Shown in pieces: positions 2 to 34,826 of a stretch of DNA of 54,618 nucleotides. The stretch is taken from positions 80,932 to 135,549 of the forward strand of contig PIVY01000001.1 of assembly GCA_003353795.1 (NCBI GenBank), read 5' to 3'. Numbering within the stretch: position 1 is the first letter of the stretch; each line of letters begins with the position of its first letter. The position numbers and the translations under genes are program-made. Source of the DNA: a bacterium. Lineage in GTDB: Bacteria; Krumholzibacteriota; Krumholzibacteriia; LZORAL124-64-63. The notes beneath the pieces were generated by a model, which was not told where the DNA came from, made no database searches, and saw nothing but the letters and a program-made list of their open reading frames with translations.

Positions 2-694
2 GGCTGCAATGACGACTTCCACGCCGACTACACGTCGAAGCTGGACGTCTTGCTGAGCGCCGGGGTGATCTACTACCTGGTGATCGACGGCTACGGGGGC
101 GATGCCGGAGACTACGTCCTGAACGTCATGGAACTGGACGACTGCGAACTGGCGATTCCCGCGGACTCGGTACTCGAAGGTGAGCCGCCCCTCGTGGACG
201 GCACCGGGATCCTCGACTGCCACAACGGCGGTTGCCAGTTCGTGGACGAATGTGCCGAGAGCACCTGGCAGGTCCTGGGTGGCGATGTCTTGGGCGAACT
301 GTCCTTCCACGGCCGGTCCGGCTGGTACATCGACGGCGGCGCGGATTTCCGCGACACCGACTGGTTCGAGGTCACCTTCGGCCTCGACGGCGTGATCGAG
401 ATCGTGGCCGACGCCGAGGAGCCGACTTATCTGTTCGAACTCGGTCCGCAGGATTGCGGCACGGTCGGCGTCGTGCAGAACGTTTCCATCGGGCCGTGCG
501 TGCCGAACACCATGACCATCACCGGCGATGTCGGGTCCACGGCCTGGATCTGGGTCGGTCCGCAGACCTTCACGTCACCCACGGGCGCGACGCCCTACGA
601 GTTCGACTACCTGCTCGAGATCTCGGGGCTGGAGATCGGGCACGTGGCCGTGGAGGCGGAGAGCTGGACGGGAGTCAAGGCCCTGTACCGTTAG
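2..694 (+). CDS. Secreted PPC-like paralog 1 (5' end cut by window edge)
   Basis: The reading frame is open from base 2, so the signal peptide and first part of the protein lie outside the window. What remains starts inside the first beta-sandwich (CNDDF, DYTSKL, YYLVIDGYGGDAGDY), a pattern typical of pre-peptidase C-terminal (PPC)-like domains. It continues into a second domain marked by EPPL, NGGC, RDTDWF, TYLFELGPQDC and IWVGP. The protein ends in the tail SWTGVKALYR, shared with the seven paralogs starting at 4182. It is probably exported to the periplasm or cell surface; its ligand is unknown. It is the only family member upstream of the glycyl radical genes and has its own terminator. 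The family relationship is certain; a binding or adhesion role is inference. Confidence 0.85.
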   Translation, partial: GCNDDFHADYTSKLDVLLSAGVIYYLVIDGYGGDAGDYVLNVMELDDCELAIPADSVLEGEPPLVDGTGILDCHNGGCQFVDECAESTWQVLGGDVLGELSFHGRSGWYIDGGADFRDTDWFEVTFGLDGVIEIVADAEEPTYLFELGPQDCGTVGVVQNVSIGPCVPNTMTITGDVGSTAWIWVGPQTFTSPTGATPYEFDYLLEISGLEIGHVAVEAESWTGVKALYR

Positions 695-1702: not shown

Positions 1703-4054
1703 GTGAACGAACGCGTGGCGCGACTCCGCCAGGAGAGCTTCGAGACCCCCGTGACCCTGGACCACGAGCGAGCGGCCATCGTCACCGACGCCTACCGCGA
1801 AAATCTGGGGCGTCTGTCCACGCCCATGCTCCGGGCCACGGCGTTCTACGACCTGTGTCGTCGCAAGTCGCTCTACATCGGCGAGGACGAACTCATCGTC
1901 GGCGAACGGGGTCCGCGACCCAAGTGCGTTGGCACGTACCCCGAGATCACCTGCCACACGCTCGACGACCTCGAGATCCTCGACACGCGCCCGCAGAATC
2001 CCTACCGCGTGAGCGACCAGACCCGCCTGGTCTTCGCCGAGCAGGTGATCCCGTTCTGGCGGGGGCGTTCCATGCGCGCATTCGTGCTGGAACGCATGGA
2101 GGACGAGTGGAGCACCTACTACGAGGCCGGCATCTTCACCGAGTTCATGGAGCAGCGCGCTCCCGGTCACACCACGCTCGACGGCAAGTTCTATACACGG
2201 GGCATGGAGGACTTCCAGAACGACATCGAACTGGCCGTCGCCGCCCTCGATCCCGCCGACGCCGACGCGGTGGCCAAGCGTGAACAACTGCAGGCCATGC
2301 GCCTGAGCTGCGACGCGGTGATCCTCTTCGCCGAGCGTCACGCCGACCATGCCGAGGACCAGGCTCGCAACGCCTCGAGCGAGCGCGCCGCCGAACTGCG
2401 CGAGATCGCGCGCATCTGCCGCCGCGTGCCGCGTCACGCCCCGCGCACGTTCCACGAGGCGCTGCAGATGTACTGGTTCATGCATCTGGGCACCATTACC
2501 GAACTCAACGGCTGGGACGCCATGAATCCCGGTCACCTCGACCGCTACTTCCAGCCCTTCTACGACCGGGATCTTCGCACCCGCATCCTCGATCGGGACC
2601 GCGCCAAGGAATTGCTGGGCTGTTTCTGGATCAAGTTCGACCACCATCCGGCGCCGCCCAAGGTGGGCGTCACGGCCCAGGAGTCGAGCACCTACAACGA
2701 CTTCACCAACATCAACGTGGGCGGCGTGCTGGAGAACGGTCAGGACGGCGTGAGCGAGCTGAGCTTCCTCATGCTCGAGGTCATGGACGAGGTTCATCTG
2801 TTGCAACCTCAGGGCAACATCCAGCTCTCCAAGCGCACCAGCGACCGCTTCCTCAAGGCGGCCTGCCGGGTGATCCGCAACGGCTACGGCTACCCGTCGG
2901 TGTTCAATGCCGACACCGTGATCGCCCAGCTGCTGCGGCAGGGCAAGTCGCTGACCGACGCGCGCGAAGGCGGCAGCAGCGGCTGCGTAGAGACCGGGGC
3001 GTTCGGCAAGGAAGCCTACTTCCTCACCGGCTACCTCAACCTTCCCAAGCTGCTGGAGCTGGCGTTGCACGACGGGCGCGATCTACGCACCCGTCGGCAA
3101 CTCGGCCCAAGGTCGGGCGACCCGGTGCACTTCACATCGGTGGCTGACGTGATGCAGGCCTTCGCCGTCCAGGTTCGGCACGCGGTGGCGGTGAAGCATC
3201 GTGGGAACCAGGTCATCGAGCAGCTCTTCGCGGCCCGCATGCCGGCCACGTTCCTGTCGGTGCTCATCGACGACTGCATCGAGAACGGTCGCGACTACAA
3301 CGCCGGCGGCGCTCGCTACAACACCACGTACATCCAGTGCGTGGGTATCGGCACGATCACCGACAGCCTGTCGGCGCTGGAGCATCACGTCTTTGGCGGC
3401 GATCTGCCGCTTTCCGAACTGCTGGCGGCGCTGGACGACGACTTCGACGGCGAAGAACCGCTGCGCCAGCGCCTCTGGAACCGCACCCCGCGCTGGGGCA
3501 ACGACGACGACCGCGCCGACCGGCACATGGAGCAGGTGTTCGAATTAGTGCTCGAGCTCATCGACGGCTTGCCCAACAGTCGCGGCGGCCGCTACCACGT
3601 GGACATGCTGCCGACCACGTGCCACGTGTACTTCGGCAAGGTCTGCGGCGCGACGCCGGACGGACGCCATGCCGGTCGGCCGCTGAGCGAGGGCATCTCG
3701 CCGGTACAGGGCACCGACTCCAAGGGGCCCACGGCCGTGGTCAACAGCTGCGCCAAGATGGACCACGAACGCACCGGCGGCACCCTGCTGAACATGAAGT
3801 TCTTGCCGAGCGTGCTCGCCGGCGAGGAGGGCATCGAAAAGCTGGCGCGGCTCATCCGCACCTACTTCCGGCAGGGCGGCCACCACATGCAGTTCAACGT
3901 GGTGGACGTGGCGACGCTGCGGCGGGCGCAGAAGCATCCCGAGGAGCATCGGGATCTCATCGTGAGGGTGGCGGGCTACAGCGATTACTTTTGCGACATC
4001 GGGGAGGCGTTGCAGGAGGAGATCATCGCGCGGACGGAGCAGGAGGAGGCCTAG
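1703..4054 (+). CDS. hypD: Glycyl radical enzyme, probable trans-4-hydroxy-L-proline dehydratase
   Basis: A 783-residue glycyl radical enzyme. The thiyl-radical cysteine is Cys428 in SSGCVETG, with general-base candidate Glu430; the radical glycine is Gly758 in RVAGYSDYF near the C-terminus. The stretch AGIFTEFMEQRAPGHT (Phe148, His156) and the region after Cys428 (FGKEAYFLTGYLN) agree with what I recall of hydroxyproline dehydratase rather than choline lyase, glycerol dehydratase or pyruvate formate-lyase. Such an enzyme converts trans-4-hydroxy-L-proline to pyrroline-5-carboxylate under anoxia. No P5C reductase gene (proC) is nearby. Start GTG behind GGAGG. The symbol means the Hyp dehydratase, not the hydrogenase maturation protein. 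GRE status is near certain; the substrate is a strong inference. Confidence 0.85.
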   Translation: MNERVARLRQESFETPVTLDHERAAIVTDAYRENLGRLSTPMLRATAFYDLCRRKSLYIGEDELIVGERGPRPKCVGTYPEITCHTLDDLEILDTRPQNPYRVSDQTRLVFAEQVIPFWRGRSMRAFVLERMEDEWSTYYEAGIFTEFMEQRAPGHTTLDGKFYTRGMEDFQNDIELAVAALDPADADAVAKREQLQAMRLSCDAVILFAERHADHAEDQARNASSERAAELREIARICRRVPRHAPRTFHEALQMYWFMHLGTITELNGWDAMNPGHLDRYFQPFYDRDLRTRILDRDRAKELLGCFWIKFDHHPAPPKVGVTAQESSTYNDFTNINVGGVLENGQDGVSELSFLMLEVMDEVHLLQPQGNIQLSKRTSDRFLKAACRVIRNGYGYPSVFNADTVIAQLLRQGKSLTDAREGGSSGCVETGAFGKEAYFLTGYLNLPKLLELALHDGRDLRTRRQLGPRSGDPVHFTSVADVMQAFAVQVRHAVAVKHRGNQVIEQLFAARMPATFLSVLIDDCIENGRDYNAGGARYNTTYIQCVGIGTITDSLSALEHHVFGGDLPLSELLAALDDDFDGEEPLRQRLWNRTPRWGNDDDRADRHMEQVFELVLELIDGLPNSRGGRYHVDMLPTTCHVYFGKVCGATPDGRHAGRPLSEGISPVQGTDSKGPTAVVNSCAKMDHERTGGTLLNMKFLPSVLAGEEGIEKLARLIRTYFRQGGHHMQFNVVDVATLRRAQKHPEEHRDLIVRVAGYSDYFCDIGEALQEEIIARTEQEEA

Positions 4055-4100: not shown

Positions 4101-4129
4101 TCGAATACCCCCCAGGATCGTGATATAAT
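4101..4129 (+). promoter_or_regulatory. Extended -10 promoter for the secreted paralog array
   Basis: A perfect extended -10 (TGATATAAT, hexamer at 4124-4129) stands out in GC-rich sequence. The best -35 is weak (TCGAAT at 4101-4106, 17-nt spacer), as expected for an extended -10 site. The predicted start near 4136 gives a leader of about 45 nt before the ATG at 4182. Confidence 0.65.
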
Positions 4130-4137
4130 GACATTCG

Positions 4138-4160
4138 CCTGTCAGGATCCATCTGGCAGG
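4138..4160 (+). promoter_or_regulatory. 5'-end hairpin of the array leader
   Basis: CCTGTCAG and CTGGCAGG form an 8-bp stem (one G-U pair) around a 7-nt loop. It starts within a few bases of the predicted transcript 5' end and ends 10 nt before the GGGGGAGA ribosome site. A hairpin here could shield the mRNA 5' end from RNase E-type decay or tune translation; this role is inferred. Confidence 0.5.
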
Positions 4161-4181
4161 AAAGGCTCCGGGGGGAGACCC

Positions 4182-5213
4182 ATGATCCGACTGCTAACGC
4201 TGTTGACCTTGTTGTTGCTGACCTCGCCGACCGTCGCCCTCGATACGAGCCATCGGGCGCCCGCCAAGGCGACCGTCCACGCCGAAGCGTCGCCGGCCGA
4301 TCCCGCGGTGATCCGCCAGGGCGGCGACACCATCCTCGACGCCGTGCCGCTGGCCATACCCACCAACGATCTCGCCGGCACCACCGTCGGCTACACCGAC
4401 GACTACGACGAGGTTTGTCCCTACAACGATTCGGTGGCGCCCGACGTGGTCTACACCTTCACGCCCGACAGCGACATGCTGGTCATCATCGACATGCTCG
4501 GCTCGACGTACGACACGAAGATCTACGTCTACGACGAGAACCTCTCGCTCGTCGCCTGCAACGACGACTTCTACTCGGACTACGTGTCGCGGCTGGAGAA
4601 CGTACCGTTGATCGGAGGTGTGGCCTATTACCTGGTCATCGACGGGTACGGGGCCGAAGCCGGGGACTACGTGCTGACGATCGAGGAATTCATTCCCTGC
4701 GAGCTCGATCCCTTCTGGTCCGACGAGAACGAGCCGCCGCTGGAGTACGATTACGTCGACAACTGGAACGGGGGCTGCAATACCGATCCTCTGGATGGGC
4801 CGTTCCAGGACCTCTACCCGTGGCATACGTTCGCCGGAGTCAGCGGCTGGTATCTCGCCGGGGGATCGAACAACCGCGACACCGACTGGTACCGCCTGGT
4901 AATTCCCACCTGGACCGGCGGAGTCCTCGATTTCACCGGCGACGCCGAGCAGCCCACCTACCTGTTCGAACTCGGCCCGCAGGATTGCGGCGAGGTCGCC
5001 GTGCTGCAGTCCGTGGAGATCGGCCCCTGCCAGGAGAACGTCATGACCATCGTCGCCGAACCCGGCTCGGTCGTCTGGTTCTGGGTCGGCCCCACCACGT
5101 TCGAATCTCCCGACGGCTCGGATGTCTACGAGTACGACTACATCCTCGAGTTCCCGTGGGTCACCGCCGTCGAGGACCACACCCTCTCCAGCGTCAAGAA
5201 TCTGTTCCGCTGA
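4182..5213 (+). CDS. Secreted PPC-like paralog 2
   Basis: 343 residues. The ATG at 4182 was chosen over the longer frame because it follows GGGGGAGA and opens a clean signal peptide (basic MIR, leucine-rich core, cleavage near PTVA/LD). Residues about 45-170 form the PPC-like domain (RQGGDTI, YTDDYDEVCPY, DTKIYVYDEN, CNDDF, YYLVIDGYG). Residues about 175-325 form the second domain (EPPLEYDYVDNWNGGC, RDTDWY, TYLFELGPQDC, FWVGPTTF). The tail is HTLSSVKNLFR. It is the first gene of the seven-gene run behind the 4101-4129 promoter. Acidic, cysteine-containing and exported; likely a surface or periplasmic binding protein. No catalytic residues are recognisable. Confidence 0.88.
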   Translation: MIRLLTLLTLLLLTSPTVALDTSHRAPAKATVHAEASPADPAVIRQGGDTILDAVPLAIPTNDLAGTTVGYTDDYDEVCPYNDSVAPDVVYTFTPDSDMLVIIDMLGSTYDTKIYVYDENLSLVACNDDFYSDYVSRLENVPLIGGVAYYLVIDGYGAEAGDYVLTIEEFIPCELDPFWSDENEPPLEYDYVDNWNGGCNTDPLDGPFQDLYPWHTFAGVSGWYLAGGSNNRDTDWYRLVIPTWTGGVLDFTGDAEQPTYLFELGPQDCGEVAVLQSVEIGPCQENVMTIVAEPGSVVWFWVGPTTFESPDGSDVYEYDYILEFPWVTAVEDHTLSSVKNLFR

Positions 5214-5229: not shown

Positions 5230-6255
5230 ATGCGCACCATCGTCATCATCATGATCCTCGGCCTCGCCGTGCCGGCGCTGGCTTTCGACCTCGGACCGGC
5301 GGGACCGGTCAAGCAAACCGTGAACCAGGAGCCGCCGCCGGCCGATCCGGACGTGATGCGCCAGGGCGGCGACAACGTCCTGGACGCTGCGGACCTGGTC
5401 ATTCCCACCGTCGATCTCGTCGGCACCACAATCGGCTACACCGACTACTACGACGAGGTCTGTCCCTACACCAACTCGACGTCGCCCGACGTGGTCTACA
5501 CGTTCACGCCGGACCAGTCTGTCGCGATCAACGTCGACATGTTCGGCTCGGCCTACGACACCAAGATCTACATCTACGACGCCAATCTGAACCTGGTGAA
5601 CTGCAACGACGATTTCTACAGCGACTACACGTCGAGGCTCGAGAACGTGGCGGTCGCCGGCGGTGAGGTCTACTACCTGGTGATCGACGGCTACGGGGGA
5701 GACGCCGGCGAATATTTGCTGAATGTCGAGGAGTTCGAGCCCTGCGTGGTCGAGTGCTCGCCCTGGAGTGAAGACGAGAATGAGCCGCCGCTGGCCATGG
5801 ACTACGTAGACCTGTGGAACGGCGGTTGCGATCCCGATCCCGAAAATCCGATGCTGCAGCCCCTGTCGGGGGGCCAATTCTGCGGCGTGTCGGGCTGGTA
5901 TGTCTCGCAGGGGGGAAATATGCGCGACACCGACTGGTTCCTTTTCCAGGTGCCTTACTCGGGCACGTTCGAGATCGTCGTGACCGCCGAGTATCAGACC
6001 TATCTGTTCGAACTGGGTCCCCAGGATTGCGGCAACGTGGGCGTGCTCCAGATGGTGACCTGTGATCCCTGTTTCGAGACCGTGATGCAGGTGAACAGTC
6101 CGGGGGGAGAGGACATCTGGCTCTGGGTCAGTCCGACGGTCTTCGCGTCGCCTCTTGGCCTCGACGTGCAGGAATACGTCTACACGCTCTGGATCCCCAT
6201 CGGCGACGCGGTGGAGAGCCACACGCTGTCCGATGTGAAGGATCTGTTCCGCTGA
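5230..6255 (+). CDS. Secreted PPC-like paralog 3
   Basis: 341 residues, 16 nt after paralog 2. The ATG at 5230 follows AAAGGCG and starts a signal peptide ending near PALA/FD. The longer upstream frame overlaps the previous gene and lacks an export signal at its start. The same two domains occur: RQGGDNV, YTDYYDEVCPY, DTKIYIYDAN, CNDDFYSDYTSRLENV and YYLVIDGYGG, then NEPPLAMDYVDLWNGGC, FCGVSGWY, RDTDWF, TYLFELGPQDCG and LWVSPT. The tail is HTLSDVKDLFR. Close in sequence to paralog 2, so the pair probably arose by recent tandem duplication. Secreted; function unknown. Confidence 0.88.
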   Translation: MRTIVIIMILGLAVPALAFDLGPAGPVKQTVNQEPPPADPDVMRQGGDNVLDAADLVIPTVDLVGTTIGYTDYYDEVCPYTNSTSPDVVYTFTPDQSVAINVDMFGSAYDTKIYIYDANLNLVNCNDDFYSDYTSRLENVAVAGGEVYYLVIDGYGGDAGEYLLNVEEFEPCVVECSPWSEDENEPPLAMDYVDLWNGGCDPDPENPMLQPLSGGQFCGVSGWYVSQGGNMRDTDWFLFQVPYSGTFEIVVTAEYQTYLFELGPQDCGNVGVLQMVTCDPCFETVMQVNSPGGEDIWLWVSPTVFASPLGLDVQEYVYTLWIPIGDAVESHTLSDVKDLFR

Positions 6256-6271: not shown

Positions 6272-6832
6272 ATGCGGATCGGCGCCACGCTCGCAATGTT
6301 GATCGCCACCGTGTCGCTGGCGCCGGCCATCGAATGCCCGGACGGCGCGGTTCTCGAAAATGAACCACCGCTGATCGACGGCTACATCGACCAGCACAAT
6401 GGAGGGTGCGACACCCTTCCCGAAGGTGCTGACCCGCTGTTCCAGTCGCTCGACCGGGGTTGGTTCTGCGGCGAGACCGGCTGGTACAACGTGGATGGCG
6501 AGTTCCACCGCGACACGGATTGGTTCCTCGTCGAGTTTCCCGAGGCGGACTTCCTCGGCATCTACGGGTGGGCCGAAGAGCCCACCTATCTCTTCGTGCG
6601 CACACCGGACTGCGAAGCGCCCCTGGTCATCGAGAGCGTCTGGCTCGTCGAAGAACAGGCGCACACGCTCTACTACGAGGGCGCGCTGGGCGAAAACGTG
6701 TGGGTCTGGATCGCGCCGCCGGCCTATGCCGCACCAGGCTGGCCGATGACATGGAGCTATCAGGTGCGTTTCGTTGCCGTCACGCCGGTGGAGGAACCCA
6801 CCTGGTCGTCCGTGAAGCAGATGTTCGACTGA
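6272..6832 (+). CDS. Short secreted paralog 4 lacking the PPC-like domain
   Basis: 186 residues. A signal peptide (cleavage near LAPA/IE) runs straight into the second family domain: ECPDGAVLENEPPL, NGGC, FCGETGWY, RDTDWF, TYLFVRTPDC, VWVWIAPPAY. The whole PPC-like domain of about 130 residues is absent, and the join is exactly at the domain border. The tail TWSSVKQMFD is kept. The gene has its own GAGAGGAG ribosome site and a 16-nt spacer like its neighbours, so it looks like a working deletion derivative, not debris. It shows that the second domain and the tail form a self-standing module. Confidence 0.87.
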   Translation: MRIGATLAMLIATVSLAPAIECPDGAVLENEPPLIDGYIDQHNGGCDTLPEGADPLFQSLDRGWFCGETGWYNVDGEFHRDTDWFLVEFPEADFLGIYGWAEEPTYLFVRTPDCEAPLVIESVWLVEEQAHTLYYEGALGENVWVWIAPPAYAAPGWPMTWSYQVRFVAVTPVEEPTWSSVKQMFD

Positions 6833-6848
6833 TCCGGAGGTGACCGTC

Positions 6849-7883
6849 ATGCGTCTATTCGCGACCATCATTCTTATGCTCGTCCTGGCTGCCGGCGCCC
6901 TGGCCTACGATCTGGGCAATGCCGCTTCGCCCAAGCCCGCGATCCAGCACACGCCGCCGCCCATCGATCCGGAGATGCTCCGCCAGGGCGGCGATACCAT
7001 CGCCGATGCGGTGGAACTGACAATCCCCGTCTGGGAACTCGTCGGCACCACGGTCGGATACACCGACGACTACGACGAGGCCTGCCCGTACACGCAGTCG
7101 ACCTCGCCGGACGTGGTCTACACGTTCGTGTCCAGCCAAGACGCGGTCGTCGACATCGACATGTTCGGCTCCGGCTACGACACCAAGATCTACGTGTATG
7201 ACGAAAACCTCGAGCTGGTGGCGTGCAATGACGATTTCTATCCCGACTACACCTCGAAGATCGAGTTCCTCGCACTCGATGGCGGCGTGCGCTACTACCT
7301 CGTCATCGACGGCTACGGTGGCGATGCCGGAGAGTACGTCCTGTCCATCAACGAGTGGATCATCGAGCAGCTGGAGTGTCCGATGGGCGCGGTCCTGGAA
7401 GACGAACCACCGCTGGCCGTCGATTACGTCGACGAGCACAACGGGGGCTGTAACAATCCCGACGCGCCTGACGCGCCGCGCTTCCAGCACATCGCCAGCC
7501 AGATGTTCTGCGGCGTCAGCGGCTGGTACCTCTATGAGGGCTCGACCAACCGCGACACCGACTGGTTCACGGTGACCTTACCCGCCAGCGGCACGCTCAC
7601 CATTACCGGCGATGCGGACTACCACTCCTACATCTTCGAACTCGGCCCGCAGGAATGCGACGTGGTCGGCGTGCTCCAGAACATCGAGATCGGCCCCTTC
7701 AACCCCGGCTACATGATCCTGACCGGCGAGCCCGGCGCCACGGTCTGGATCTGGGTGGGGCCGACGACCTTCGAGGCTCCGAACGGGCAGGATGTCGATG
7801 AATACCTGTACATCCTGATGCTCGACGATCCCGTGTCCGTGAAGAATCACAGCTGGACCGGTGTGAAGGCCCTCTTCGACTGA
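6849..7883 (+). CDS. Secreted PPC-like paralog 5
   Basis: 344 residues. The ATG at 6849 was preferred to the GTG at 6840 because CCGGAGG lies 8 nt upstream and the signal peptide (MRLFATII..., cleavage near GALA/YD) begins there. First domain: RQGGDTIADA, YTDDYDEACPY, SPDVVYTF, DTKIYVYDEN, CNDDFYPDYTSKIE, YYLVIDGYGGDAGEY. Second domain: CPMGAVLEDEPPL, NGGC, FCGVSGWY, RDTDWF, SYIFELGPQEC, IWVGPTTF. Tail HSWTGVKALFD. The FELGPQDC cysteine is conserved in spacing, suggesting disulfides after export. Fifth family member in the window, same operon; function unknown. Confidence 0.88.
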   Translation: MRLFATIILMLVLAAGALAYDLGNAASPKPAIQHTPPPIDPEMLRQGGDTIADAVELTIPVWELVGTTVGYTDDYDEACPYTQSTSPDVVYTFVSSQDAVVDIDMFGSGYDTKIYVYDENLELVACNDDFYPDYTSKIEFLALDGGVRYYLVIDGYGGDAGEYVLSINEWIIEQLECPMGAVLEDEPPLAVDYVDEHNGGCNNPDAPDAPRFQHIASQMFCGVSGWYLYEGSTNRDTDWFTVTLPASGTLTITGDADYHSYIFELGPQECDVVGVLQNIEIGPFNPGYMILTGEPGATVWIWVGPTTFEAPNGQDVDEYLYILMLDDPVSVKNHSWTGVKALFD

Positions 7884-7898
7884 CCGGAAAGGAAGATC

Positions 7899-8930
7899 AT
7901 GAAGACTTCGTTAACTGTCGTGCTCGCGCTGCTGCTCACAGCCCCCGTCCTGGCCATCGATCTTGGCAACCGCGGCCCGGACAAGCCGGTAGCCAGGCAC
8001 GCACCCGGAACGCCGGATCCTGCCGCCCTGCGCCAGGGCGGCGATACCATCCTCGACGCGGTGCTCGTCTCCCTGCCGGTGGTCAACATGACCGGCACCA
8101 CCGCCGGCTTCACCGACGACTATGACGAGGTCTGTCCCTACACCAACTCGACCTCGCCCGACGTGGTGTACACGTTCGTGCCCGACTCGAACGTCGGTCT
8201 GGTCATCGACATGTATGGTTCGGTCTACGACACCAAGATCTACCTCTACGACGAAAACCTGGCGCTCGTGGCCTGCAACGACGATTTCCATCCGGACTAC
8301 ACGTCGCTCCTGGAAAACGTGCCGGTCATTGCCGGCGTGCAGTACTTCCTGGTCATCGACGGCTACGGAGGCGACTTCGGCGAATATCTGCTGCAGATCG
8401 AGGAGTTCATGCCGTGCCAGCTCGACTGTCCTGCGGGCGCCGTGCTCGAGAACGAGCCGCCGCTGGCGAATGGCTACGTGGACAACTGGAACGGTGGCTG
8501 TAATACCGATCCCGTCAGCCCACCCTTTCAGCAGGGATGGTGGGGCTCGTTCTGCGGGGTGAGCGGATTCTATCTCTCGGCAGGGAGCAGCTTCCGCGAC
8601 ACGGATTGGATGCAGCTAGAGATTCCCTCCGACGGCGTCCTGGAGATCTACGGCGATGCCGAGCTGGCGACCTACATGTTCGAGCTCGGACCACAGGATT
8701 GCGACACCGTCGGCGTCCTGCAGAACGTGATCATAGGACCCTGCGTCGAAGGCGCCATGGTCATCACCGGCTCGCCCGGATCGACCGTCTGGTTCTGGGT
8801 CGGGCCGACCACCTTCGCCTCGCCCGACGGCTCGGACGTCTACGAGTACGAATACGTCCTGATCAACAACACCATCTGGGACCCGGTGGAGAACGATAGC
8901 TGGACCGATGTGCGGGCGCTGTTCGACTGA
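7899..8930 (+). CDS. Secreted PPC-like paralog 6
   Basis: 343 residues. Signal peptide MKTSLTVVLALLL with cleavage near PVLA/ID; GGAAAGGAAG precedes the ATG. First domain: LRQGGDTILDA, FTDDYDEVCPY, SPDVVYTF, DTKIYLYDEN, CNDDFHPDYTSLLENV, YFLVIDGYGGDFGEY. Second domain: CPAGAVLENEPPL, NGGC, FCGVSGFY, FRDTDWM, TYMFELGPQDC, FWVGPTTF. Tail DSWTDVRALFD. The spacer to the previous gene is 15 nt. It is close to paralogs 2 and 5 throughout, with differences spread along the chain. Exported; function unknown. Confidence 0.88.
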   Translation: MKTSLTVVLALLLTAPVLAIDLGNRGPDKPVARHAPGTPDPAALRQGGDTILDAVLVSLPVVNMTGTTAGFTDDYDEVCPYTNSTSPDVVYTFVPDSNVGLVIDMYGSVYDTKIYLYDENLALVACNDDFHPDYTSLLENVPVIAGVQYFLVIDGYGGDFGEYLLQIEEFMPCQLDCPAGAVLENEPPLANGYVDNWNGGCNTDPVSPPFQQGWWGSFCGVSGFYLSAGSSFRDTDWMQLEIPSDGVLEIYGDAELATYMFELGPQDCDTVGVLQNVIIGPCVEGAMVITGSPGSTVWFWVGPTTFASPDGSDVYEYEYVLINNTIWDPVENDSWTDVRALFD

Positions 8931-8960
8931 TTCGGCGGCGCCGTAACCAGGAGAGGAACC

Positions 8961-9989
8961 ATGACGCGATCAATCGCCCGGATCGTGATGGCGGCGTCCT
9001 TCGCCTGCCTGGCCGCCACGACCTTCGCCAAGGTCGAGACCGGCGTCACCCCGCCGCCGCCCGACCCGGCCACGGTGCGTCAGGGCGGCGACACCTTCGC
9101 CGACGCCTTCCTGATGCCCATGGAGATCTTCTCCGCCAGCGGCTGGACCACCGGCTACACCCACGACTACGACGAGGTCTGCCCTTACTCCGGCAGCGAG
9201 TCGCCGGACGTGGTCTACCGGGTCACGCCGGAGTACGACTCGTGGGTCGACATCGATCTCTGGGGTTCGGAGTACGACACCAAGGTCTACGTCTACGGCG
9301 CCGGCATGGAGCTCATTGCTTGCAACGATGACTACTACGCGGACTACACTTCTTTCATCGAGGGCGTGCAGCTGTACCGCGGCGTCAAATACTACATCGT
9401 GATCGACGGCTACGGCGGCGATCACGGCCAGTACCATCTCTACGTCGGCCCGCCGCCGCCGGGTGGCGGCGAGGTGGAGTGCCCGTCGGGCGCGCCGCTG
9501 GAGAACGAGCCGCCACTGGAAGACGGCTACGTCGATGCGCACAATGGCGGCTGCACGAATCTCGACCAGGGACTCAACCTCCTGGATTTCCTCTTCGACG
9601 ATCCCTACTGCGCGACCTCCGGCTGGTTCGACGGCGGCCGCGACCACGACTGGTATCGGGGCTACACAACCTACGGACACGAAAGCGTGGAGGTCCTGGC
9701 CGAGGTGGAGCAGACCACCTGGCTGCTGGGCTACGGCGGCGCCGACTGCGGTGATCTGGAGTTGCGGGAGTCGGTCCTCGTGGAGCCCGGCGACGAGGGC
9801 TGGATGACGGTTCCCGGCGGCACCTACGAGGAGATCTGGATCGAGGTCCATCCCGATCTCGCGGTGGCGCCGCCCGGTTTCGAGGGGAACGAGTACGACT
9901 ACCTGATCATGCAGGCGTTTCCCGTGGGCGAGCAGCCGGTTGCGGTGCAGGAGCGTAGCTGGACAAGTGTGAAGGGGTTGTTCGACTGA
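8961..9989 (+). CDS. Secreted PPC-like paralog 7 (divergent second domain)
   Basis: 342 residues behind a 30-nt spacer, the only long spacer in the run, with AGGAGAGG before the ATG. The signal peptide cleaves near TTFA/KV. The PPC-like half is well kept (VRQGGDTFADA, YTHDYDEVCPY, DTKVYVYGAG, CNDDYYADYTSF, YYIVIDGYGGDHGQY), followed by a Gly/Pro linker. The second half starts normally (CPSGAPLENEPPL, NGGC) but loses RDTDWF and FELGPQDC in favour of RDHDWY and WLLGYGGADCG. Tail RSWTSVKGLFD. This member shows drift in the second domain while the tail stays fixed. Confidence 0.86.
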   Translation: MTRSIARIVMAASFACLAATTFAKVETGVTPPPPDPATVRQGGDTFADAFLMPMEIFSASGWTTGYTHDYDEVCPYSGSESPDVVYRVTPEYDSWVDIDLWGSEYDTKVYVYGAGMELIACNDDYYADYTSFIEGVQLYRGVKYYIVIDGYGGDHGQYHLYVGPPPPGGGEVECPSGAPLENEPPLEDGYVDAHNGGCTNLDQGLNLLDFLFDDPYCATSGWFDGGRDHDWYRGYTTYGHESVEVLAEVEQTTWLLGYGGADCGDLELRESVLVEPGDEGWMTVPGGTYEEIWIEVHPDLAVAPPGFEGNEYDYLIMQAFPVGEQPVAVQERSWTSVKGLFD

Positions 9990-10005
9990 ACGTGGAGGTG
10001 ATCCT

Positions 10006-11010
10006 GTGAAGACCTTGTTGCTGGTCGCCGCGGTCATGGTCGTGTCGCTGCCGGCCGTGGCCGTCGATACGGTCAAGCCGATTCGCACCGATGCCCCGCC
10101 GCCGCCTGATCTCGCCGTCATTCGTCAGGGCGGCGACACCATCGCCGACGCGATCCCCATCGTCCTGCCGTACGACGGCTCGGGAACGACCACCGGATAT
10201 ACCAACGACTACGATGAGATCTGCCCCGTTCCCGGGTTCGACGCGCCCGACGTCGTCTACTCGCTGGCGCCAGAATCCACAGCGCCGGTGATCGTCGACC
10301 TCCATGGCTCCGGCTACGATACCAAGGTCTATATCTACGACGAGAACCTGGACGTCGTCGCGTGCAATGACGATTTCTACAGCGACTACACGTCGAGGGT
10401 CGAGGCGCTGCTCGCCGCGGGTGCGACCTACTTCATCGTGATCGACGGGTACGCCGGCGACTTCGGCGACTACTTGATCCGTGCCTGCGCCTTCGAGCCG
10501 TGGCCGGACGACTGCCCCGACGGCGCCCAGATCGAGGGCGAACCGCCGATGCACGACGACTACGTCGATGAGTTCAACGGCGGTTGCGCCACGGGAAACC
10601 AGGGGCCGGTCCAGCCCATCACAGCGCCGGTGTTCTGCGGAGTGGCGGGGTGGTCGGGCGGTGTTAGCTGGCAGAAGAACTTCGACTATCTCGCGGCGAC
10701 CATGCCGGCCAGCGGCGAACTGATGGTGACCATCGCGGCCGAGATCCATACCGTCGTGTTCCAGTACCATCCCACTGACTGCATCGACGGTGCGCCGGTC
10801 CTGGGGACGTCCTGCGACTCGTGCGATGATACCGAGATGACCATCGTCGGCGAGCCCGGCGAGGAGATCTGGATCGTTGTCGCGCCGTTCGTCTATCAGC
10901 CGCCCGGTTGGTTCGACGGCAACGAGTACCGCTACCGCCTTGAGATGAACCTCGCTCCGGTCGCGAACCATGACAGAAACATGTCAAACGTCCGAGGCCT
11001 GTTCCGGTAA
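10006..11010 (+). CDS. Secreted PPC-like paralog 8 (most divergent, last in array)
   Basis: 334 residues from a GTG with GGAGG upstream; 16-nt spacer. Signal peptide MKTLLLVAAVMVV, cleavage near PAVA/VD. First domain: IRQGGDTIADA, YTNDYDEICP, APDVVYSL, DTKVYIYDEN, CNDDFYSDYTSRVE, YFIVIDGYAGDFGDY. The second domain keeps CPDGAQIEGEPPM, NGGC and FCGVAGW but replaces RDTDWF with KNFDYL and lacks FELGPQDC. The tail is NMSNVRGLFR, where Met takes the place of the usual Trp or Leu. A terminator follows after 28 nt, so this gene ends the operon. Confidence 0.86.
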   Translation: MKTLLLVAAVMVVSLPAVAVDTVKPIRTDAPPPPDLAVIRQGGDTIADAIPIVLPYDGSGTTTGYTNDYDEICPVPGFDAPDVVYSLAPESTAPVIVDLHGSGYDTKVYIYDENLDVVACNDDFYSDYTSRVEALLAAGATYFIVIDGYAGDFGDYLIRACAFEPWPDDCPDGAQIEGEPPMHDDYVDEFNGGCATGNQGPVQPITAPVFCGVAGWSGGVSWQKNFDYLAATMPASGELMVTIAAEIHTVVFQYHPTDCIDGAPVLGTSCDSCDDTEMTIVGEPGEEIWIVVAPFVYQPPGWFDGNEYRYRLEMNLAPVANHDRNMSNVRGLFR

Positions 11011-11068: not shown

Positions 11069-11085
11069 TCGTGCGAGGTCGAACC

Positions 11086-12330
11086 GTGCAACGAACGAAC
11101 CGCGACTGGCGCTGGGCCCTGCTGGTGCCCGTGCTCCTGCTCCTGACCCTGGCCGCCTGCTCCATCGAGGAACCCGTGGAGGTGGAGCCCGAGCCGGAGG
11201 TCGTTCCCACGCCCGCCTCGGGCAGCGTCGACCATTCGGTGCCCGTCGTCCTGAGCTGGGAACTGGACGACACCATCGCCTGGGGCGACAGCTTCCACGT
11301 CTACTGCGACACCATCCGCCCGCCGCGCCGTGAGGTCTACGCCGGCACCGAGCGCACCTGTACCGTGGGCGACCTCCTCGACGACCGCACCTACTACTGG
11401 TACGTGGCCGCCGCCGACAGCGCCGGCGCTCCGTACATGTTCGGCGCCTGGAGCTTCGCCACCCGGCCGTTCCTCTGCACCGTCCGTCCCGAACCCGTGG
11501 ACCACACCACCAATCTCGAGATCGATCCCTTCCTGAACTGGGCCGTGGCCTCGGCCAGCGACACGCCGTCCTACTATCTCGCCTACGTCGACACCGTGAA
11601 CCCGCCGCAGGAACTGGTCTACGCCGGCAGCGACAGCGTGTGCCGCGTGTATGGTCTGGAGTATGAAACGCAGTACTGGTGGCGCGTGACGGCCGTCGAT
11701 GGCAGCGACAACACCGACACCACCGGTCCCTGGACCTTCACCACCGGTCCGCCGCTCTTCCTGGTGGACCTCGATCCCGCGCCCGCCGACAGCAGCAGCG
11801 ACCTCGACCGTGTGATCACCCTGAGCTGGAACGTGCTGACCGAGTCGGCGCCCACGGAGAACTGGGTCGTCTTCCTCGACGACCACCCGCAGCCCACGAC
11901 CCTGGTCTACGCCGGCACCGACACCGAGGTCACGCTCACCGACCTGCGCTACGGCCGGACCTACTACTGGGCCGTCACCGCCTTCGACGACGACGGGCAC
12001 ACCTTCACCAACGGTCCCTGGCGCCTGGATATCCGCGAGTTCGACGTGGAGCTCGAGCCGTCGCCCGCCGACGGATCGACCCAGGTGGCGACCACCGGCT
12101 CGTTGAGCTGGAACGTGACTCGCGGCGCCGAGATGGTGGTGAACTACCTGGTCTGCCTCGACAGCCACACCCAGCCCACGACGCCGGTCTACGCGGGACC
12201 CATGACGTCGCTGGACCTGGGGGCCCTCGGATTGGCGCCGGGCACGACCTACTGGTGGAAGGTGACCGCGCTGGACGTGGACGGATTCACCTGTCCGCTG
12301 GATCCCTGGAGCTTCACCACAGCACCCTGA
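11086..12330 (+). CDS. FN3-repeat lipoprotein
   Basis: 414 residues from the GTG at 11086, chosen because GCGAGGT lies 8 nt upstream; an in-frame GTG at 11071 would add five residues. A basic N-terminus and hydrophobic core end in a lipobox with Cys25 (TLAAC), so the protein is a lipid-anchored envelope protein. An acidic linker (EEPVEVEPEPEV) follows, then four fibronectin-III-like repeats of about 95 residues. Each has a YAG(T/S/P) turn and a YWxVTAxD strand; the first, second and fourth close on PW/AWSF-type TT(G/A)P strands. No catalytic motif is visible. Probably a surface or periplasmic scaffold or adhesion protein. Its 3' end overlaps the convergent phosphatase gene by 17 nt. Confidence 0.8.
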   Translation: MQRTNRDWRWALLVPVLLLLTLAACSIEEPVEVEPEPEVVPTPASGSVDHSVPVVLSWELDDTIAWGDSFHVYCDTIRPPRREVYAGTERTCTVGDLLDDRTYYWYVAAADSAGAPYMFGAWSFATRPFLCTVRPEPVDHTTNLEIDPFLNWAVASASDTPSYYLAYVDTVNPPQELVYAGSDSVCRVYGLEYETQYWWRVTAVDGSDNTDTTGPWTFTTGPPLFLVDLDPAPADSSSDLDRVITLSWNVLTESAPTENWVVFLDDHPQPTTLVYAGTDTEVTLTDLRYGRTYYWAVTAFDDDGHTFTNGPWRLDIREFDVELEPSPADGSTQVATTGSLSWNVTRGAEMVVNYLVCLDSHTQPTTPVYAGPMTSLDLGALGLAPGTTYWWKVTALDVDGFTCPLDPWSFTTAP

Positions 12331-31484: not shown

Positions 31485-32363
31485 CTAGCCGCGTTGCAGA
31501 AGCAGGTGGATGAGCACGCCGATTCCGGCCAGCCAGAGATTGGTGATGTTGGAAACGATGATGTTGAGCACCGCCGAGGTGGTTCGCCCGCGTCGTAGCA
31601 GGGTGAGGCCGGAACGGAACTCGGGCCAGCTCGTCAGGGCGGCCAGCACGAAGAATCCGATGGCTCCCTTGGGCGCGTGGCTCGCGTCGGCGGTGTAGTC
31701 GACCACCGGATCGAGTGCGTAGCCGGCGACGAAGAGCACCGCCAACGCGGGGATCAATCGCCAGCGTGAAACCGAACCGGGAATGGTGTCGATGGAGGCC
31801 GGGTCCCCGGGGCGCTTGACGAACAGTACGATGCTGACAACGCCGGTCACGATAATCCAGGCCCAGTAGTACTCCGGCGGCGTACGGAAGAACGCGGCGG
31901 CCAGGATCGCCGTCAGGATCAGCGCAGTCGGTCCGTAGGCTCGGTGGTGCCGGAAGACGGCGCCCAGGCAACCTGCCGCGATGGCTGCCGCGACGAGCAT
32001 GGCCGGGTTCATGAAGTTGGAACCCAGGGGCGTACTCGCAGCGAAGATGATGTCGTTGCTCAGCAGTCCCACCAGGAGGCAGAGCGCCTCGGGACCATTG
32101 GTGATGAAACCCACCACGGTTCCCAGCCCCGGCATGTCCCGCAAGGCGTCGATGATGAACTCGACGGCTGCCCCTACCAGGAACATCACGAGCATGATCG
32201 CCACCGCGCCGACGGCCGAATCGCGCAGGTCGCCGCCGCCGAGCAGGGCGGCGCCGACGAAGAATGCGAGCACGAGCAGGCCGATCACCAGATCCAGCGG
32301 CTGCAGTATCGGCACGCCCCACAGATACAGTCCGCGGGGTCTCGATCCGGAAGGGTTGGTCAT
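31485..32363 (-). CDS. CaCA-family sodium/calcium exchanger-like protein
   Basis: 292 residues with about ten membrane segments. The two alpha repeats are seen as GFITNGPEALCLLVGLLSND...GSNFMNP (residues about 85-120) and ALTSWPEFRSGLTLL...IVSNITN (about 240-280). They carry the paired acidic and Asn residues of cation/Ca2+ antiporters, though PE replaces the usual PEL in altered form. The ATG at 32363 follows GGAGAG. It moves Ca2+ or another cation across the inner membrane; direction and ion are unproved. Divergent from the GNAT-HDAC gene. Confidence 0.82.
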   Translation of the reverse strand: MTNPSGSRPRGLYLWGVPILQPLDLVIGLLVLAFFVGAALLGGGDLRDSAVGAVAIMLVMFLVGAAVEFIIDALRDMPGLGTVVGFITNGPEALCLLVGLLSNDIIFAASTPLGSNFMNPAMLVAAAIAAGCLGAVFRHHRAYGPTALILTAILAAAFFRTPPEYYWAWIIVTGVVSIVLFVKRPGDPASIDTIPGSVSRWRLIPALAVLFVAGYALDPVVDYTADASHAPKGAIGFFVLAALTSWPEFRSGLTLLRRGRTTSAVLNIIVSNITNLWLAGIGVLIHLLLQRG

Positions 32364-32453
32364 CCACTCTCCTCGTGCGTTGCGGGACCTCCGCATTCTC
32401 GGTGCAGTGTCGGGGTTTGGCAAGTGTGGCGACGAGGTCGAGGAAATCCGTGG

Positions 32454-32480
32454 TTGCCGGTGCGGGTCGACTGTTATCAT
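32454..32480 (+). promoter_or_regulatory. Extended -10 promoter abutting the GNAT-HDAC start codon
   Basis: TTGCCG (32454-32459) and extended -10 TGTTATCAT (hexamer 32475-32480) with a 15-nt spacer. The -10 ends 6 nt before the ATG at 32487, so the transcript would begin at or beside the start codon. No Shine-Dalgarno sequence lies between them. Confidence 0.5.
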
Positions 32481-32486
32481 TCACCG

Positions 32487-34826
32487 ATGATCGATCGTGA
32501 ACAACTCGCCGAGGCCGTGGCCGTCATCGCAGCACGCGATCCCGAGGCCGGCATTCCCCTGCGCGAACTCCTGGCAGCAGGGCGCCTGGCGGCCGTACCC
32601 GGCGCCGAGGTGGCCACGTTTCGCATGGACGACGAGACGGTGACCGTGCGGCGTCACCAGTTCATCCACCAGGGGCTGCCGGCACTGGTCGAACGGCTGA
32701 CCCTGGCCTTCGGAGCCTGGCGGGCGCGCCAGGGTGAGGCCGAGGGCACGGAGGGATTCCAGAAGGACCGCAGTCGCCGCCTGTCGCGCCGGGCGGGCCT
32801 CGAGTTCATGCTGGATTTCAGCCTCGCCCAGGCCGAGGACACCGGCCGTCGTCAGATGGAGGAGCATCCCGCCGACGGCGAACGCGCCGCGGCCCTGACC
32901 CTGCTCGAGGATCTCCACGGCGAGTTCCCCGGCGACGCCTTGCCCTGGAATCCATCGCATCACGACGTCTTCTTCAAGGGCGTCGTCGACGTGGACACCG
33001 CCGCCCTCTTCTGCCGCTTTCCGTTCACCCGCGACGGACTGCTGCAGGTGGCTGACCGCAACCTGGAGTTCTTCAACCTCCACTTCGTGCTCGACCATCT
33101 CCTGCGCGGCCAGCACCGCAACCTGTTCTGCTGCGTGGTCCACGGTCGGCTGGTGGGCATGATGACCATCGGACCGGTCACCGAGCACGGCCGGCGGGAA
33201 CTGGAGGTCAAGTGGCTGGCCACCTCGCGGGGCGGGCCCACCGGGGCGCCGGAACGCGGCGAGTGGGTGCACCGGGGCGCGGGCGCCCTGCTGTTGGCCG
33301 GCGCCTGGCTACTCTGGAAGATCTACGAGCCGCGGCTGAGCGGATTGATCGTCGAGTCCGAGCCGGCGGCGGTGAACTTCTACGAGTCCCTGGGTTTCGA
33401 CCACGCCAAGCCCCACGTCTTCCATCTCGACGATCCGCGCGGCCACTTCCTGCGCAACATCGTGGCCATGGCCAACCGGGTGGACGAGTTGCCCATCGAG
33501 GTACAGCGCGACATCAGCTTCATGGTGCGCCGCCAGGCCAAGGCGCTCATCGCCGCCGAGGTCTCCAACCCCTACCCGCAGCCCGACACCGAGACCCGTC
33601 GCCTGGCCGGCGCCTTCTTCTTCGAGGAGTGCTTCCGCGCCAGCCGGTCGCGACCCTGGGCCGGCGAGGCCACGGCCATGCTCGTCGAGCGCGCCCAGCG
33701 CCTGCCCTGGGGCGAGGAACTGCTGCGCTGCGCCCACGAGTACGGTCTGGTTCAGCAGCGCGGGGTGCCCGAACCGCGCAAGCCCCTGCTGCTGGTCATC
33801 GACGACCGTTTCGGCGGCCACCTCGAGAAGATCACCAGCTTCGAGAGCGGCAAGCGCCTGCGCGCGCTGTTGACGGTGCTGGAGGATCCCGACCTGGACG
33901 ACCGCTGGCGCAAGCTGCCGCCCCGTCAGGCCACCGTCGAGGAACTCATGCTTGTCCACACCCGCGACCACGTGGTGCGAACCGTGGGCACCATGGGCCC
34001 GACGACCCAGCCCGACGGTCACGTGGTGGCCGAGACGGTCAAGGTGCAGGACACCGCCCTGTTCGCCGTGGGTGGCTGGCTAGAACTACTCGACGCCGTG
34101 GTGGACGGTCGGGCCAACCGCGGTTTCGCTCTGGTGCGGCCGCCGGGGCACCATGCCGAGCCCGATCAGGCCATGGGCTTCTGCTTCTTCAACAACGCCG
34201 CCATCGGCGCGCGGCATCTTCAGCAGAAGCACGGCATGAAGCGCATCCTGCTCGTGGACATCGACGCGCACCACGGCAACGGCACCCAGACCATCTTCTG
34301 GGACGACCCCAGCGTGCTCTATTTCTCCGTCCACCGCGACGGCGCGTATCCGTTCACCGGCGCGGTCGACGAGGTGGGCGAGGGGCCGGGCCGCGGCTTC
34401 ACCGTGAACGTGCCCATCGACCGGCGCGTGGGCGACCGCGACTACGCCCGCATCCTCGCCGGCCTGCTCGACCCCATCGCCCGCCAGTTCCGTCCCGAGT
34501 TGCTGATGGTCAGCTGCGGATTCGATCTGCACCACAAGGACCCGCTCGGCCAGCTGTCGCTCACCGCCGAGGGCTACCGCCTGATCACCGACCTGCTGTT
34601 GCGTCTGGCCCAGGACATCTGCGGCGGCAAGACGGCGTTCGTGCTTGAGGGTGGCTACAGCGTGGGGGGGATCAAGGAGGCGGGCAGCCGGGTGATCCGG
34701 CGTCTGGGCGAACTGGACATGGTGGACGCCGACGTCGTGGATCGTCTCCGCGACGCCGGCGCCTCGGGGGTGCCGGGCTTGAAGCAGGTGCTCAATGTCC
34801 AGCGGGAATTCTGGGATCTGGACTAG
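32487..34826 (+). CDS. GNAT acetyltransferase - histone deacetylase-like fusion
   Basis: 779 residues. Residues 1-190 match nothing I recognise. Residues about 195-330 look like a GNAT fold: GRLVGMMTIGP, an acetyl-CoA loop HRGAGALLL, and SEPAAVNFYESLGF. From about 430 to 770 there is a class II-type deacetylase: GHHAE with His555 and His556, DIDAHHGNGTQ with zinc ligands Asp591/593 and His595, GFDLHHKDPLG with Asp680, and GGYSVGG with Tyr724. All catalytic parts are intact. The chain thus joins a possible acetyl donor domain to a deacetylase, for protein lysines or small acetylated amines such as polyamines. Tail overlaps the dehydratase gene by 4 nt. Confidence 0.85.
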   Translation: MIDREQLAEAVAVIAARDPEAGIPLRELLAAGRLAAVPGAEVATFRMDDETVTVRRHQFIHQGLPALVERLTLAFGAWRARQGEAEGTEGFQKDRSRRLSRRAGLEFMLDFSLAQAEDTGRRQMEEHPADGERAAALTLLEDLHGEFPGDALPWNPSHHDVFFKGVVDVDTAALFCRFPFTRDGLLQVADRNLEFFNLHFVLDHLLRGQHRNLFCCVVHGRLVGMMTIGPVTEHGRRELEVKWLATSRGGPTGAPERGEWVHRGAGALLLAGAWLLWKIYEPRLSGLIVESEPAAVNFYESLGFDHAKPHVFHLDDPRGHFLRNIVAMANRVDELPIEVQRDISFMVRRQAKALIAAEVSNPYPQPDTETRRLAGAFFFEECFRASRSRPWAGEATAMLVERAQRLPWGEELLRCAHEYGLVQQRGVPEPRKPLLLVIDDRFGGHLEKITSFESGKRLRALLTVLEDPDLDDRWRKLPPRQATVEELMLVHTRDHVVRTVGTMGPTTQPDGHVVAETVKVQDTALFAVGGWLELLDAVVDGRANRGFALVRPPGHHAEPDQAMGFCFFNNAAIGARHLQQKHGMKRILLVDIDAHHGNGTQTIFWDDPSVLYFSVHRDGAYPFTGAVDEVGEGPGRGFTVNVPIDRRVGDRDYARILAGLLDPIARQFRPELLMVSCGFDLHHKDPLGQLSLTAEGYRLITDLLLRLAQDICGGKTAFVLEGGYSVGGIKEAGSRVIRRLGELDMVDADVVDRLRDAGASGVPGLKQVLNVQREFWDLD

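Follow-up and report, generated by a model that had tools for sequence, protein, structure and literature searches.

The locus

We analyzed a stretch of 54,618 nucleotides (the window) from contig PIVY01000001.1 of a bacterium of the phylum Krumholzibacteriota (GenBank assembly GCA_003353795.1). The element of interest is a short tail at the extreme C-terminus of eight paralogous proteins, all encoded on the + strand. A preliminary description of this DNA had reported one terminal pattern on all eight, and the tail is indeed real on each of them. The interval given there, 6802–11010, covers the last four tail proteins and the end of paralog 4, while the remainder of the group lies outside it. 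The pattern itself fits seven of the eight. The eighth protein (10006–11010, ending ...ANHDRNMSNVRGLFR) deviates: N-M replaces [ST]-[WL] at positions -10 and -9 from the C-terminus, and the V[KR]xLF[RD] core is kept as VRGLFR. Paralog 4 lacks the N-terminal domain and retains the tail, as had been described. The features are as follows, each tail being followed directly by the stop codon.

650..694, + strand: tail of paralog 1, ...VEAESWTGVKALYR; the protein starts upstream of the window and is whole in locus L028
5169..5213, + strand: tail of paralog 2 (gene 4128–5213), VEDHTLSSVKNLFR
6211..6255, + strand: tail of paralog 3 (gene about 5230–6255), VESHTLSDVKDLFR
6788..6832, + strand: tail of paralog 4 (gene 6272–6832, without the N-terminal domain), VEEPTWSSVKQMFD
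6840..7838, + strand: body of paralog 5, a representative cargo, with signal peptide, PPC/galactose-binding-like domain and second beta domain
7839..7883, + strand: tail of paralog 5 (gene 6840 or 6849 to 7883), VKNHSWTGVKALFD
8886..8930, + strand: tail of paralog 6 (gene 7899–8930), VENDSWTDVRALFD
9945..9989, + strand: tail of paralog 7 (gene 8961–9989), VQERSWTSVKGLFD
10966..11010, + strand: tail of paralog 8 (gene 10006–11010), degenerate at -10/-9, ...NHDRNMSNVRGLFR

The group of tail paralogs extends upstream of the window (contig C505:78978–79007, locus L027).

The tail in the whole genome

The window's genome (5.7 Mb in 953 contigs) was searched with two codon-level patterns, and the same pattern reversed served as the control. 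Pattern 1, W-x-x-[IV]-[KR]-x-[aliphatic]-[FY]-x-stop, gave 41 matches compared with 1 in the control. Pattern 2, in which position -9 was left free while S/T-like codons were required at -10 and S/T/G/A-like codons at -8, gave 66 matches, again with 1 in the control. Every one of the 66 is terminated by a genuine stop codon, and W (37) and L (29) are the sole residues at position -9. Pooling both searches yields 70 tail proteins (41 with W and 29 with L at -9). Positions on which no selection had been placed are also conserved, namely a small residue at -4, E at -13 and, in the pattern 1 search, S/T at -10; Lys at -5 is near-invariant. The resulting consensus is [ST]-[W/L]-[G/S/T]-x-[V/I]-K-[small]-[L/M]-[F/Y]-[R/D/E] followed by the stop codon, for which SWxxVKxLFR is a convenient shorthand. 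It is preceded by a V[AG][TV]E-like linker, and the signal as a whole is about 10–16 residues long.

The preliminary description held the tail to be absent from all other secreted proteins of the window. This is correct for the window; for the genome it is not, since about 70 proteins carry it there. The genome-wide search that it had proposed found the tail in 34 sequence-unrelated groups among the 67 (of 70) tail proteins that are complete open reading frames (ORFs). These groups are the blastp clusters of the bodies after removal of signal peptide and tail, the largest having 19 and 10 members. When loci from this and foreign genomes were pooled, 153 tail proteins fell into 75 clusters. Further tandem groups of three tail genes occur on contigs C180 (L014–L016) and C896 (L042).

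By a simple heuristic, 66 of the 67 complete proteins have a signal-peptide-like start, while a similar heuristic accepts about 33% of the ORFs without the tail in related loci; a stricter version, applied to the output of a crude gene caller, accepted 15% of non-tail ORFs and 54% of tail ORFs. Pfam and NCBIfam models identified PPC, beta-helix, PKD, lamin tail domain, NHL, FG-GAP, CBM20, CBM96/DNRLRE, CHRD, MAM and choice-of-anchor E domains, among others, in the bodies. No model of the tail itself was found in either collection. One protein, in locus L123, resembles the tailed beta-helix proteins and ends SWSAIKALFLPASP, with residues extending past the motif; it perhaps has a decayed or extended tail.

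Spread across genomes

In a set of 38 genomes, made up of this one and its relatives (28 genera, 7 families), 37 contain the tail, with 600 matches versus 21 in the control. Across the phylum it was found in 79 of 80 genomes (1,044 matches versus 25), with a median of 11 per genome. We also scanned one genome for each of the 84,980 species in GTDB, using the stricter and GC-biased pattern WGx[IV]KxL[FY]R-stop, and at least 118 stretches matched. Among the matches listed, most are named Candidatus Eisenbacteria, Candidatus Krumholzibacteriia, or are metagenome-assembled genomes (MAGs) labelled bacterium or Gemmatimonadetes; a few are from Latescibacterota, Neomarinimicrobiota, Ignavibacteria, Zixibacteria and Hymenobacter. 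Some of the names look erroneous. The number of tails per genome among these listed matches ranges from 1–2 (Hymenobacter, Ignavibacteria) to at least 60 (one Eisenbacteria, one MAG).

Position of the tail relative to the fold

In two tail proteins a known domain is complete upstream of the C-terminus. CHRD occupies residues 26–134 of a 154-residue protein (profile positions 1–117, the full length) and ends 20 residues before the C-terminus, and DNRLRE occupies residues 38–202 of 221 (full profile) and ends 19 residues before it. The tail therefore follows complete domains. In an AlphaFold2 model of paralog 5, the final strand of the second domain spans residues 320–329; residues 332–347 score below 50 in the predicted local distance difference test (pLDDT) and include a short helix at 342–346. 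The model of an FN3-like family that bears the tail (see below) consists of a confident beta-sandwich, after which the tail forms a helix at 118–129 (pLDDT about 60). Foldseek searches with both models returned generic FN3/beta-sandwich matches alone, those of the window paralog having low TM-scores, and a profile of the tail had no match among PDB sequences.

If the tail is helical, the hydrophobic positions -9, -6, -3 and -2 share one face. The hydrophobic moment gives mixed evidence on this: that of the tails in this genome peaks near 100–120 degrees, but that of other tails is about equally high near 180 degrees.

Interchange with type IX sorting domains

The translocon protein SprA of the type IX secretion system (T9SS) is encoded in 34 of the 38 genomes of the relatives set, among them the window's genome (SprA_N, E 1e-13). 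Classical T9SS C-terminal domains (CTDs) were found in all 38, with 83 matches in the window's own genome; 9 of 10 CTD proteins inspected have the canonical ending, in the style ...GVYFYKLKxxxxxTRKMILLR. Related bodies carry one ending or the other. In locus L141, two neighbouring genes encode proteins with 40% identity over about 180 residues, of which one ends ...VEDESWGSIKGLYR and the other (980 aa) ends in a FlgD_ig-type domain, a kind seen at the ends of T9SS cargo. A MAM-like domain is common to a tailed protein in L059 and a protein with a CTD-like end in L056, and a protein in L048 with a T9SS type A sorting domain has beta-helix stretches in common with many tail proteins. Either/or endings on homologous bodies are the pattern behind the NCBI name 'choice of anchor'. 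Judged from these sequences, the tail seems to occupy the same slot as the T9SS sorting domain, and this interchange is the strongest sequence evidence for a role as localisation signal.

T9SS is a plausible candidate for the receptor. One genome of the same phylum, G037, has SprA and 35 CTD matches and is without the tail by the pattern used, so the tail is not a requirement of T9SS. No clearly T9SS-less genome with the tail was found.

A tailed FN3-like family in Bacteroidota

In Bacteroidota the tail was found on one FN3-like family of single-domain proteins of about 130–140 residues. Its most divergent members are 23–34% identical to the Zixibacteria protein, and the best conserved stretch is the C-terminal TWGSIKAMFR. 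A near-full-length member is present in 73 of 198 sampled Bacteroidota genomes (examples L205–L234). SprA is present in all 73 of these, compared with 154 of the 198 overall (naive hypergeometric P 5e-11, with relatedness ignored). The neighbours of the tailed FN3 gene in Bacteroidota are often Maf (the gene frequently lies just before it), MATE and membrane-protein genes; the synteny check revealed no recognisable T9SS genes beside it. In a single case, a Zixibacteria MAG (L127:4390–5746, - strand), the tailed FN3 gene follows directly on a gene for DUF4835, a hypothetical T9SS component (PMC9722745). Within Krumholzibacteriota the FN3 family gave partial matches in larger frames and no full-length tailed orthologue, and a search for DUF4835, made without a positive control, found none.

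Other genes in the window

Between paralogs 1 and 2, on the + strand, lie genes for a radical-SAM activase (807–1700) and a glycyl radical enzyme of the pyruvate formate-lyase family (1703–4054). Just after the last paralog, 11071–12330 (+) encodes a lipoprotein-like protein with repeated fn3 domains that is without the tail, unlike its upstream neighbours. At 31947–34823 (+) is a frame of 959 aa in which a histone-deacetylase domain is confined to the last third (residues 633–917); residues up to 630 have no Pfam match, which a wrong start may explain.

Interpretation of the tail and alternatives

Probably (about 0.74), the tail serves as a dispersed, modular signal for sorting or docking, short and helical, which a common receptor reads after Sec export. 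Judging from their signal-peptide-like starts, tail-bearing proteins would be exported by Sec. Once exported, the protein would carry the tail as a short amphipathic helix that protrudes from its folded part; W/L(-9), V/I(-6), L(-3) and F/Y(-2) would form one face, and Lys is near-invariant at -5. This helix would most likely dock on a common receptor, either periplasmic or located in the outer membrane, and docking may sort or anchor the carrier at the cell surface or outer membrane. The sorting or docking role suggested in the preliminary description is well supported in this respect by unrelated carriers, Sec-like starts, a tail outside the domain and the occurrence of either ending; a specific partner is unsupported. 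A co-occurring transporter or sortase-like gene, suggested there as a check, was not found conserved beside tail genes, although the sortase and exosortase families themselves were not searched for.

Several points weigh against this interpretation. Clustering of 710 ORFs neighbouring tail genes revealed no conserved neighbour and gave no receptor or partner candidate that recurred across lineages. The tail is missing, by the pattern used, from the T9SS-positive G037. The signal-peptide scores come from a simple heuristic instead of a trained predictor, and the structure models were built on shallow alignments (11 and 32 sequences).

In a bolder form, the tail would be a 12-residue amphipathic C-terminal helix constituting an undescribed sorting code of the wider group of Bacteroidota, Krumholzibacteriota and Eisenbacteria; it would direct dozens of Sec-exported proteins per genome to a dedicated receptor, possibly as a minimal class of T9SS signal; we put this at somewhat less than an even chance. 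A narrower form, which we hold tentatively, names T9SS as the receptor and makes the tail a short class of T9SS signal, mainly on small proteins, beside the classical CTD; a variant, equally tentative, has the tail dock on an outer-membrane T9SS carrier such as PorV or PorP. The occurrence of SprA and CTDs in the relatives set, the same domains bearing either CTD or tail, the SprA-positive state of every Bacteroidota genome with the tailed FN3 protein, and the DUF4835 gene in L127 are all consistent with a role for T9SS. Moreover, in the solved structure of the T9SS extended translocon, SkpA contacts PorV from the periplasmic side through a short helix at its C-terminus (PMC10994853). Against it, type A CTDs and the tail do not resemble each other; the known T9SS signals, types A, B and C, are all far longer (PMC10202324) and are described as regions of roughly 70–100 or more residues. 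G037 combines SprA and many CTDs with no tail, DUF4835 did not turn up in Krumholzibacteriota in the search without a positive control, and the correlation with SprA in Bacteroidota ignores relatedness.

The same amphipathic pattern at the extreme C-terminus would also suit a helix for assembly or quality control that binds other tailed proteins, a periplasmic chaperone or a protease, and dispersed cargo would be expected of a general client tag for a chaperone or protease. We regard this as unlikely, since the interchange with T9SS sorting domains and the adhesion and carbohydrate-binding types of body suggest localisation, and the last residue of the tail is charged and varies among R, D and E. 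Classical PDZ C-terminal ligands differ from such a charged, variable terminus. Finally, the eight tail proteins of the window are paralogs, and the tail might simply be the last strand or helix of their second domain, inherited among them; the preliminary description had itself named this as the finding that would speak against a signal. It is very improbable and we reject it: the carriers comprise 34 unrelated groups in the genome, the tail is spread phylum-wide, the model has a disordered or helical tail past the last strand of the domain, and complete Pfam and NCBIfam domains end before the tail.

Comparison with known C-terminal signals

The tail looks like an undescribed address label that is read after proteins leave the cytoplasm. 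A literature search turned up no mention of the tail strings and none of T9SS in Krumholzibacteria, subscription papers and preprints being outside its coverage. A tag on roughly 70 proteins of a single genome implies either an unrecognised receptor or a new class of T9SS signal in many uncultured bacteria, and the Bacteroidota carrier is directly testable, as it occurs in culturable Hymenobacter.

The tail is unlike every known C-terminal signal checked. The T9SS type A CTD (PF18962/TIGR04183) is likewise a C-terminal signal of Sec-exported proteins with dozens of unrelated cargoes per genome, and it is present in tail-bearing genomes on homologous bodies. However, it is an Ig-like fold of about 70–80 residues ending ...GVYxxxLxxxxxxxxKxxLxK, whereas the tail has about 12 residues and is probably helical; among 75 tail representatives, PF18962, TIGR04183 and PF13860 were absent from the families matched. 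PEP-CTERM/exosortase, MYXO-CTERM/myxosortase and GlyGly-CTERM/rhombosortase are also short dispersed tags on many exported families, and the tail, in its 34 clusters, resembles these and LPXTG in its dispersal over unrelated exported proteins. Those CTERM tags combine a signature motif with a transmembrane helix and a basic cluster, and are cut by an intramembrane enzyme. Compared with them and with LPXTG, the tail has no transmembrane helix or basic cluster; it is hydrophilic and free of hydrophobic stretches, with the stop straight after L[FY][RDE].

The outer-membrane beta-signal recognized by the beta-barrel assembly machinery (BAM) shares with the tail its place at the extreme C-terminus and its aromatic and hydrophobic residues. 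In the beta-signal these alternate at every second residue and the terminal residue is aromatic, whereas the tail has a -9/-6/-3/-2 spacing and a last residue of R/D/E/Q/N; no barrel family was found among the Pfam and NCBIfam matches of the tail-protein bodies. The type I secretion signal, also C-terminal, goes without a Sec signal peptide, in contrast to the signal-peptide-like starts of 66 of the 67 tail proteins by our heuristic. The SkpA helix provides a precedent for the proposed contact, but it belongs to a component of the machine while the tail belongs to cargo. Tags of this general kind, PEP-CTERM and the T9SS CTD, earlier led to whole secretion and anchoring machines.

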